Assembly (NCBI GenBank): GCA_937870915.1
Contig: CALMZQ010000219.1
Location: forward strand, 1 to 64,000
DNA length: 64,000 bases
Source: an uncultured Ignavibacteria bacterium
GTDB taxonomy: Bacteria; Bacteroidota; Ignavibacteria; Kapaibacteriales; Kapaibacteriaceae
Direction: 5' to 3'
Part shown: one piece after another, positions 2,638-60,196 of the stretch
Layout of the letters: the number at the start of each line of letters is the position of its first letter
Numbering within the stretch: the stretch's first letter is position 1
Notes under the pieces: model-generated
What the model saw: only the letters and a program-made list of their open reading frames with translations
The model's database searches: none
Told to the model about the DNA's origin: nothing
Program-made: the position numbers and the translations under genes

Positions 2638-4625
2638 CGGCGGTAGTAGACTCCGGGTGGAAGGCCGTCTAATGTTGATCCAACGTATCGACCGCGTATA
2701 TCATAGTAGCGAAGACTGTGACGTGGAGCAGTCGGGGGCTGGGGATCAAATAGACGTGGCAGCTGCTCGAGGCAGACACCTTCTGTCACAACTCTGCCGT
2801 CGATGATCGTTGTTCTTACATCAATAGTATCACCGGCACCACTGGTCCAGATGATGTCCGTCAATGTTGAGCGCGTAACCGTGTCTCTGCCTAACGTGTG
2901 CCAACCAGGAACAATACAGATCGTGTCACCAACCCTCAACGTATCGAAGGCCAGGGTGAACGGGACGTCACCACGGAGCGTTACGGGATCACTCAGTGTT
3001 GACGTTGCAGGAACAAAGGTTGAGAGATCTAGTTCAAGTGAGCCCGCCAATTGAACAACACCCGAGAGCTGGAAGTTTGCAACGTTGTCAATGCTATCAA
3101 CAATGGCAGTTACGGTATCTGCATCACCCGGAAAACCCTTCACATCAAGCACGCGGAGAAATACAGTAGGGATATAGAGACGCTCGAAAGCCATCCCACC
3201 TGTATATCCGTATGATTCAGCAGGACCGTATCCGTAGACACAGATTCCAAATGCGCTGTCGCACAAGACTTCGTGTGGTCCGGCTGACACATTGAAATGT
3301 ACATAACCATACGTAGTGCCCACAATGGATGTAGCGGCGGGGGAAGGGGCTCCATCAAGCGTTAGGGAGGCCACAGCCACCATTGGCACAACACAGGTTA
3401 TCTGATGCTGCTTGAAGACTGGAGTGCCTGTAACCTGCGGCTCGGCATTTGCCACGCGATACCCGGTAAGGTATTGTTCCACTGGAGGCATCATGATCAA
3501 AGAAGGATCACCCGAATAGCGTGAACCTCCTGGTCTATTGGCAGAACGGTCGATGATCGTTACGAGAACAGGTTGGGTGGATACTACGTCAAGGGCCGTT
3601 GTCAATTGAACATCACGAAAGGCTCCTGCACCGAGAACAAATGGTGACTGTCCATTTACCTGAACCGATGTGTTGTTCACCTCAGCAACAATTCGGCACA
3701 CGGGTACATCGTTGGGTCCTGACGACTGAAAGTCGATTGTTCTACGTAGTGGCGGTGCGATGATGCGTTTACCCCACGTATCAGTGCTTGGCAGCTGTTC
3801 AACGAGGCAATCTCGAGATGCTCGTTCAGTGAGGATTGGGACTTGGGCGCGATAATGTGATGAGAGCAGCGCAATGGGTTTTGTGCTTGTGATCTTTGTA
3901 CCTGTTAGATCGTCGTTCTGCTGTGTTGCCGTTACACGGGCTTGGACCAGATAGCTTTGTCCACGTTGAAGTTGTACAGTGCGTCTCGGTCCGGTTGCAA
4001 CAGATGATTGTGAAACGCTCAAGTCAATTGTCACGTCGGTGTTGTCTTCGGAGGCAACAACAACAAACTGGCTCGGATACGCTTCTGAGAAGCGGTAGAT
4101 GGGGTTGCCGAGAAACGATGACGTGTCAGCAACAGCAGTTGACGCGTAGGTAGATACTCGATACGACGTACCGAGGGCATCAGTCGGCAACGACATCCAT
4201 GCATCACTCGTATTCACATCACGCAACACGGCGTATACCGTAACATCCGTTGTTGTAGTGACGTGGATACTCATTGGCATTGCCTTTTCGCAGTCTGCCG
4301 TAGATCCATTGGGCCCGGCCACACCTCGAAGTTCATATTGAGACGTAGCATACCGGGTTTCCCACATTGCAGCGCCGGGGACGGTAAACGTGCGGACATC
4401 AACCGAGCCATCACGAGCTCGTGCTTCGATACGAACGTCGGTTCTCGCGTCGCAGTTCAGAAATATCGAGAGGAATGATGACGTTGAGTCGCCTTGGCCA
4501 TGGTCGTTCGGCGGCACTGCTAACCAAAAGTCATTGCCCCGGCTGTCTCGAAGACCTTGTGCACTCGCAACATCAATGTCAAGAGCACAAAAAATCGTGA
4601 GAATGATGATCAGTCGGTAGGCCAT
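2634..4625 (-). CDS. Secreted IgGFc-binding-like protein
   Basis: Exported cell-surface or extracellular protein of unknown role. I chose the ATG at 4625 because it starts directly at a signal peptide (MAYRLIIILTIF, cleavage after ASA-Q); another ATG lies at 4646. The mature N-terminus has NDFWLAVPPND and a long run of beta-rich repeats like the IgGFc-binding N-terminal domain family, common in FCB-group secreted proteins. The C-terminus (YYDIRGRYVGSTLDGLPPGVYY) resembles the end of a T9SS sorting domain but is short. The gene overlaps the upstream glycosyltransferase by 16 bp and the downstream pseudouridine synthase by 4 bp, so it sits inside an operon. Domain assignment is by motif; ligand binding is not shown. 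Confidence 0.75.
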   Translation of the reverse strand: MAYRLIIILTIFCALDIDVASAQGLRDSRGNDFWLAVPPNDHGQGDSTSSFLSIFLNCDARTDVRIEARARDGSVDVRTFTVPGAAMWETRYATSQYELRGVAGPNGSTADCEKAMPMSIHVTTTTDVTVYAVLRDVNTSDAWMSLPTDALGTSYRVSTYASTAVADTSSFLGNPIYRFSEAYPSQFVVVASEDNTDVTIDLSVSQSSVATGPRRTVQLQRGQSYLVQARVTATQQNDDLTGTKITSTKPIALLSSHYRAQVPILTERASRDCLVEQLPSTDTWGKRIIAPPLRRTIDFQSSGPNDVPVCRIVAEVNNTSVQVNGQSPFVLGAGAFRDVQLTTALDVVSTQPVLVTIIDRSANRPGGSRYSGDPSLIMMPPVEQYLTGYRVANAEPQVTGTPVFKQHQITCVVPMVAVASLTLDGAPSPAATSIVGTTYGYVHFNVSAGPHEVLCDSAFGICVYGYGPAESYGYTGGMAFERLYIPTVFLRVLDVKGFPGDADTVTAIVDSIDNVANFQLSGVVQLAGSLELDLSTFVPATSTLSDPVTLRGDVPFTLAFDTLRVGDTICIVPGWHTLGRDTVTRSTLTDIIWTSGAGDTIDVRTTIIDGRVVTEGVCLEQLPRLFDPQPPTAPRHSLRYYDIRGRYVGSTLDGLPPGVYYRR

Positions 4626-56627: not shown

Positions 56628-57773
56628 ATGACTCCTCCAAATCCATTCTTTACGCTCACAGCAACTGATCAACAAAGCTCAGCTCGAGCCGGCGTAGTAC
56701 ATACAGATCATGGGGATATTCCCACTCCTGTGTTTATGCCTGTTGGTACGCAAGGGGCTGTAAAGGCTATGGATCATCGGTCTCTGCGTGAACTGGATAC
56801 GCCGATCATTCTGGGAAATACGTATCACCTGTATTTGCGACCGGGGGTGGAGACGTTAACGGCTATGGGTGGACTCCACAAGTTCAGTACTTGGGAGCGC
56901 CCCATTCTGACCGACAGTGGTGGATTTCAGGTGTTCTCGCTCCGCGAACTACGGAAGATGAGCGAGGAAGGCGTGGAGTTCCGATCACATCTGGACGGAT
57001 CGAAACACCTCTTTACGGCCGAAAATGTTGTCGACACACAGCGGGCAATTGGTAGCGACATATTCATGGTGCTCGATGAATGCACGGCTCACCCTGCTAC
57101 CTATACCGAGGCGCGCACGTCCATGGAGCTCACTACGCGCTGGGCACAACGGTCAAGAACACACCACGTGCAAAGCCCCTTTCTCTACGGACACAAACAG
57201 GCACAATTCGCTATCGGACAAGGAAGTACGTATGCCGACCTACGTCGCGGATGTATGGAGGAGCTGGTAGGTATGGACTTTGAAGGTTATGCCATTGGCG
57301 GACTTAGCGTAGGGGAATCTGCCGAGGACATGTATGCCATGACCGAGGTTTCTACGGCTGTGATGCCCCCTACCAAACCACGGTATTTGATGGGTGTGGG
57401 CACGCCGGAGAACATCCTGAGGGCTATTGAGCTGGGTGTGGATATGTTCGACTGTGTGATGCCCACCCGAAATGCGCGGAATGGGACGTTGTTCACCACG
57501 TCCGGACGGGTCAATATCAAGAATGCGCGGTGGAAACAGTGTGACGAGCCCATCGACCTCATGGTGGGGGCTGAAAGCAGTCAGAACTACAGCATGGCGT
57601 ATCTTCGTCATCTCATCCATGCCGGAGAGATTTTGGGACTGATGCTGGCAACCATCCAGAACGTGGCCCTCTACCTTTGGCTGGTAAAAACAGCTCGGGA
57701 GAAAATTCTCGAGGGCACATTCCGTCCTTGGGCTGCTGAGACAATAGAACGACTCAATCAACAACGATCATAA
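56628..57773 (+). CDS. tgt: Queuine tRNA-ribosyltransferase without the zinc site
   Basis: Exchanges guanine-34 of Asp, Asn, His and Tyr tRNAs for a queuine precursor. The TIM-barrel motifs are intact: PTPVFMPVGTQGAVKA, LTDSGGFQVFSL with the catalytic Asp, GYAIGGLSVGE, and DMFDCVMPTRNARNG with the nucleophile Asp. But the zinc-binding CxCxxC-H site of E. coli (Cys302, Cys304, Cys307, His333) is gone: aligned positions are Val313, Ala315, Ser318 and Gln344. The barrel and the C-terminus are otherwise complete at 381 residues, so it is not a truncated copy. Bacteroidota Tgt proteins may share the loss of the cysteines; whether it is active is untested here. Confidence 0.92.
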   Translation: MTPPNPFFTLTATDQQSSARAGVVHTDHGDIPTPVFMPVGTQGAVKAMDHRSLRELDTPIILGNTYHLYLRPGVETLTAMGGLHKFSTWERPILTDSGGFQVFSLRELRKMSEEGVEFRSHLDGSKHLFTAENVVDTQRAIGSDIFMVLDECTAHPATYTEARTSMELTTRWAQRSRTHHVQSPFLYGHKQAQFAIGQGSTYADLRRGCMEELVGMDFEGYAIGGLSVGESAEDMYAMTEVSTAVMPPTKPRYLMGVGTPENILRAIELGVDMFDCVMPTRNARNGTLFTTSGRVNIKNARWKQCDEPIDLMVGAESSQNYSMAYLRHLIHAGEILGLMLATIQNVALYLWLVKTAREKILEGTFRPWAAETIERLNQQRS

Positions 57774-57797: not shown

Positions 57798-58115
57798 ATG
57801 CTTGCACTCTTTCTGATGTCACCCGCGCCTGCTGGCGGTGGTGGTGGTGATACAACCGGACAACTCATCCAGACGGTTGTGATGTTCGGCGCCGTGATCG
57901 CCATTTTCTATTTCATGATGATCCGCCCGCAACAAAAACGCGCCAAGGAACACCAGAAGTTGCTTGCAAGCATCAAGAAGGGCGACTCCGTGGTTACATC
58001 CAGCGGCATCCATGGTACGGTTTATGAGGTTGACGAGACCACGATCACCGTTACCATCGCTTCCAACACCAACGTAAAGTTCGACAAGAGCTCCGTTGGT
58101 ACCGTTAAAGCATAA
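57798..58115 (+). CDS. yajC: Preprotein translocase accessory subunit YajC
   Basis: 105-residue single-pass membrane protein of the SecDF-YajC complex. An N-terminal helix ([19 protein letters not shown]) is followed by the signature [38 protein letters not shown] Shine-Dalgarno lies 7 bp before the ATG. The tgt-yajC order is common in bacteria, where secD and secF often follow; here ribBA follows instead. Confidence 0.96.
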
Positions 58116-59846: not shown

Positions 59847-60196
59847 GAAGTTACTTCGCTCGCTGCGCTCGCAATGACGTAGTGACAAAATGACGGTATG
59901 ACATCAGCACCGTCATGCCGAGCGTAGTCGAGGCACAAGTCGAAAGGGCGAAGAGGCGAAGTGGCACGTCCGTCATGCCGAGCGTAGTCGAGGCACAAGG
60001 CGACAGGGCGAAGAGGCGAAGTGGCACGTCCGTCATGCCGAGCGTAGTCGAGGCACATTTTAACGTCAAGAACTCTCCCCCCGGCCCCCTCCCTCACGCT
60101 TCGCTAGGGAGGGGGTGCCAGTGCGTGAAGTCGGTCATAGACCTTCATGCTAGTCATACTTGCAATGACTGATGCTAGTTTGCAGCAGTCGAGACA
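59847..60196. repeat. Repeat-rich intergenic region: REP copies, 60-bp tandem repeat and GC-rich palindrome
   Basis: No gene is seen. After greA comes CGCTCGCTGCGCTCGC then AATGACG, a widespread REP-type element, and a short run of 8-bp units. From 59911 a 60-bp tandem repeat occurs in two full copies and one partial; each copy begins with an imperfect palindrome GTCATGCCGAGCG, TAG, TCGAGGCAC. From 60066 a palindrome CCCCCTCCCT, loop, AGGGAGGGGG follows, and a stretch to 60196 is near-identical to 62375-62505. Confidence 0.85.

Follow-up and report, generated by a model that had tools for sequence, protein, structure and literature searches.

Can a tRNA-guanine transglycosylase (Tgt) in which every ligand of the structural zinc has been replaced still be a working enzyme, and is such a loss peculiar to one genome? 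The question is raised by a tgt gene in the 64,000-nucleotide stretch of DNA analyzed here (the window), which derives from an uncultured Ignavibacteria bacterium of the family Kapaibacteriaceae. A zinc domain is named as a hallmark of TGTs in the accessible part of PMC6165067. The open reading frame is free of internal stops, and its product matched the TIGR00430 equivalog over its full length (residues 9 to 379; 465.4 bits versus a cut-off of 306.75), which makes it a member of this family. It was the single PF01702 match in the whole 3.3-Mb genome, which thus carries one copy. Among the matches listed, the nearest named relative was a Candidatus Kapaibacterium MAG (L002; 87%). In that record, the Tgt frame (positions 3001 to 4140) contains one in-frame TGA, with the protein otherwise well conserved; the TGA is likely a sequencing or assembly error.

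Alignment to the reference, E. coli K-12 Tgt (L112; 370 columns, 46.8% identity), reproduced exactly the four residue pairs that an earlier sequence-only reading had matched by eye at the zinc ligands (Table 1). The window Tgt does not have the combination of CxCxxC and His, and it lies outside the zinc-binding Cys3His subset. The same replacement recurs across many separate genomes, which removes chance and sequencing error as concerns. That reading had also held the catalytic Asp motifs and the barrel to be intact, and this was borne out: D96, D150 and D275 are conserved, with D150 matching E. coli D143, and the predicted model shows a TGT fold. E. coli D89 and D264, the counterparts of D96 and D275, form the catalytic Asp pair. 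For the TGT of Z. mobilis, Asp102 and Asp280 are given as the active residues in the accessible part of PMC6165067.

Table 1. Positions in the window of tgt, of residues discussed in the text and of the adjacent gene
Feature	Position	Strand	Basis
tgt, tRNA-guanine(34) transglycosylase, 381 aa	56628..57773	+	PF01702, 490 bits; TIGR00430, 465.4 bits
D96 codon, aligned with E. coli D89	56913..56915	+	Alignment; invariant in alignment A1
D275 codon, aligned with E. coli D264	57450..57452	+	Alignment; invariant in alignment A1
V313, replaces zinc ligand Cys302 (E. coli)	57564..57566	+	Alignment
A315, replaces zinc ligand Cys304 (E. coli)	57570..57572	+	Alignment
S318, replaces zinc ligand Cys307 (E. 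coli)	57579..57581	+	Alignment
Y321...Y325...H328, aligned with the Z. mobilis dimer-interface aromatic cluster	57588..57611	+	Alignment
Q344, replaces zinc ligand His333 (E. coli)	57657..57659	+	Alignment
yajC-like ORF, directly downstream of tgt	57798..58115	+	Identified by eye

Structure prediction of the C-terminal region, which had been proposed as a check, yielded a TGT fold with confidently placed subdomain helices. The AlphaFold model of the window Tgt (pLDDT 89.3, pTM 0.90) is metal-free and therefore silent on the stability of the site. It superimposed on Z. mobilis TGT (1q2r_A) with a Z score of 50.2 and an rmsd of 1.9 Å over 374 residues, and both the TIM barrel and the C-terminal subdomain are predicted to be present. 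In the model, what used to be the zinc subdomain retains its helices at high confidence (pLDDT of 95, 89, 96, 94 and 95 in the ten-residue blocks from 301 to 350); a Cys3His relative (L012), modeled with the same 48 sequences, showed the same three helices (94, 92, 97, 94 and 95). The aromatic cluster at the Z. mobilis dimer interface consists of Trp326, Tyr330 and His333, according to the part of PMC5395182 available. At the aligned positions, Y325 and H328 were invariant in the Tgts of the window's order (59/59), and position 321 was Tyr or Phe in 43 of the 59 and neither in the other 16.

Zinc might still be bound at a shifted site through different Cys/His residues: the window Tgt retains C305, H328 and H331 in its C-terminal segment, and C209 is common in the order (42/55 rows counted) but missing in all 33 Cys3His rows. 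However, inspection of columns 295 to 381 of the order's Tgts revealed no conserved candidate for a substitute Cys/His set near the former site. Column 344 aside, Cys or His predominates in the order at column 328 only, and this His is shared without exception by 29 zinc-type rows (the Cys3His rows of the entropy comparison, picked because they have the zinc site). The columns of C305 and H331 hold Cys or His in less than 20% of the order, and C209 is a lone residue. A takeover of zinc binding by another residue set, which the sequence-only reading had itself raised as an objection, is thus very unlikely. Even less credible is that tgt is decaying or has lost its tRNA modification activity. 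A structural hallmark is gone and the tgt frame of one near relative (L002) is interrupted by a TGA, but dN/dS was well below 0.1 (0.036 to 0.069 in the four of nine comparisons with relatives for which dS was computable, at dS of 2.8 to 3.7, near saturation), the catalytic residues are intact, and tgt was found in 59 of 60 relatives (G052 gave no match). Moreover, four other enzymes of the Q pathway scored over the cut-off in the genome, namely QueA (340 bits), QueG (319), QueC (184) and QueF-II (155); among the 60 relatives, QueA did so in 58 and QueG in 56.

Taken together, the equivalog match, the intact catalytic Asps, purifying selection, the presence of QueA/C/F/G and the confidently predicted TGT fold make the window Tgt look functional, as judged from sequence and model. 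With high probability, it is a working preQ1-specific bacterial Tgt that no longer binds structural zinc and in which metal-free packing would have replaced the zinc clamp. The small C-terminal subdomain, once clamped by zinc, would be held by the hydrophobic side chain at position 313, and a polar pair of Ser318 and Gln or His344, putatively in contact with each other, may help to hold it. Like the zinc enzymes, it would still exchange the base at G34 and form homodimers.

Beside QueA on contig C165, the genome contains another open frame that resembles QueA (460 codons; C177:32185-33018; 283.4 bits, pieces joined), which lies ∼2.2 kb from the QueF-II gene (C177:29671-30000). Similar second QueA-like frames occur in most relatives.

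To determine how widespread the loss is, we counted residues at the four positions in 208 Bacteroidota Tgts. The window's order contributed 59 of these, its own sequence among them, the remaining orders of its class 30, other classes 40 and a set drawn from genome contigs 79. The last set (L003 to L081) is what remains of the 80 best matches, out of at least 589, once L002 is removed, and it is biased to query-like sequences. Rows L001 (the window) and L002 (taken as the same record as L140) were left out of the counts. Six of the order's 59 rows (L135 to L140) are fragments or TGA bearing; all of them span the four positions and were counted, and the trees were built without the five fragments. 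Of 198 genomes of the phylum, 3 were without a Tgt match, and part of the other 195 were sampled.

The full Cys3His set was found in none of the 59 Tgts of the window's order, versus 29 of 30 in the other orders of the class, where the exception (L181) has FSNH; the suggestion that the loss may be a lineage trait thus held. Other classes had the full set in 2/40 cases, and the query-biased genome-contig set had it in 2/79. Over all rows, it was present in 33 and lacking in 175 of 208. On this sequence evidence, loss of the zinc ligands is a lineage trait and not peculiar to the window genome, because most relatives in this bacterial branch have lost the ligands too. The view that losing the His as well makes for a more extreme case was only partly right. 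Gln occupies position 344 in all 23 Tgts of the window's family and in 40 of 59 in the order (His in the other 19), and 52 of 208 Bacteroidota Tgts have it. Nor does the window Tgt stand out as an extreme case, as had been hinted: none of the four residues is present in 32/59 Tgts of the order and in 41/208 overall, among them three from Bacteroidia (Spirosoma, L060; Sediminibacterium, L068; and Cytophagaceae, L078). Zinc-ligand mutants of E. coli Tgt were reportedly studied in the 1990s. A description of a zinc-less or Bacteroidota Tgt was not found in the titles and abstract beginnings of the open-licence literature, and as for solved zinc-less structures, the best five of 55 distinct PDB matches to the Phocaeicola coprocola Tgt (L079) were all Cys3His.

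Cys3His is probably the ancestral state, judging by its presence in E. coli, Z. mobilis and human QTRT1 (PMC6165067, accessible part). The whole order would have inherited the zinc loss, with parallel losses in Bacteroidia and further classes of Bacteroidota. In our careful tree (59 rows, zinc columns omitted, E. coli as the sole outgroup, bootstrap not fully settled), the window's order formed one clade (100/97), Cys3His groups branched between it and Bacteroidia (94/86 and 87/81), and the zinc site needed four changes, as it did on a quick 128-row tree. The FSNH row L181 was sister to a CCCH row of the same family, f15 (L143; 93/87), and by sequence this pair likely reflects a local, seemingly recent loss. 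The same working zinc-free enzyme could alternatively go back to one loss common to the order and Bacteroidia, shared by descent or gene transfer, in place of independent losses. A tree joining the order to the Bacteroidia-side rows was not rejected in the 59-row set (AU p 0.312), and in the quick 128-row set, the likelihood rose by 70.9 units when all zinc-less rows were grouped together (p 0.911), although a constrained tree that scores higher means that this tree search was poor. The separate clade of the order, the Cys3His groups lying between it and Bacteroidia, the rejection of a single zinc-less clade in the 59-row set (p 0.0104) and the local loss suggested by L181 and L143 argue against a common loss, which we consider rather unlikely.

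At the former site, exactly two of the three Cys occurred in 0/208 rows. Position 344 was His in 156 rows, Gln in 52 and nothing else, and Gln344 was never found together with the three Cys in the 208 rows. On the 59-row tree, column 344 underwent 10 changes between these two letters; just 7 of 381 columns changed at least 8 times while using no more than two letters. Many changes restricted to two letters point to continued constraint on residue 344 after zinc loss. Within the order, position 313 was Leu, Val, Ile, Trp or Phe in 57/59 rows, and Ser318 was present in 51/59. Whether His or Gln at 344 goes along with Asp or another residue at 318 was examined by a sign test over 7 independent pairs. 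Residue 318 differed in fewer than 1 of the 7 on average, the p value was 1, and the idea of coupling was dropped. As a tentative proposal, to which we give somewhat less than an even chance, zinc loss in Bacteroidota Tgt would be both recurrent and concerted: the Cys would go together, residue 344 would then toggle between His and Gln, and a conserved metal-free lock at the old metal site would make queuosine insertion independent of zinc supply.

In predicted fold, length, catalytic Asps and pathway context, the window Tgt resembles the E. coli and Z. mobilis enzymes of TIGR00430 and has most of the dimer aromatic cluster in common with them; they possess the zinc ligands, whereas all four are replaced in the window Tgt. 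Among Bacteroidia, Phocaeicola coprocola Tgt is likewise without the three Cys, with GSDH at the four positions, but unlike the window Tgt it has kept the His and carries Asp at the third Cys position. The fold is shared by human QTRT1 and mouse QTRT2, which, unlike the window Tgt, bind zinc through three Cys and a His and form a heterodimer. A parallel, though in a protein unrelated to Tgt, is provided by ribosomal protein S4, a conserved protein that occurs across bacteria both with and without zinc, according to the part of PMC3087516 available.

In 175 of the 208 sampled Bacteroidota Tgts, the ligand set is incomplete or missing. This suggests that the fold can do without zinc, and it calls for caution in annotation or inhibitor work that assumes zinc; beyond this, the significance is modest. 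If the losses are as proposed, the sets CCCH, FNCH, FSNH, GTDH and VASQ would form a natural series on the evolutionary replacement of a structural zinc site.

The yajC-like ORF starts 24 bases 3' of tgt, and the same order, tgt-yajC, is found in E. coli. Further along the window, an intergenic segment between two genes (positions 59910 to 60089) holds three consecutive copies of a 60-base direct repeat with 100, 97 and 63% identity, the third copy matching in its first half only.
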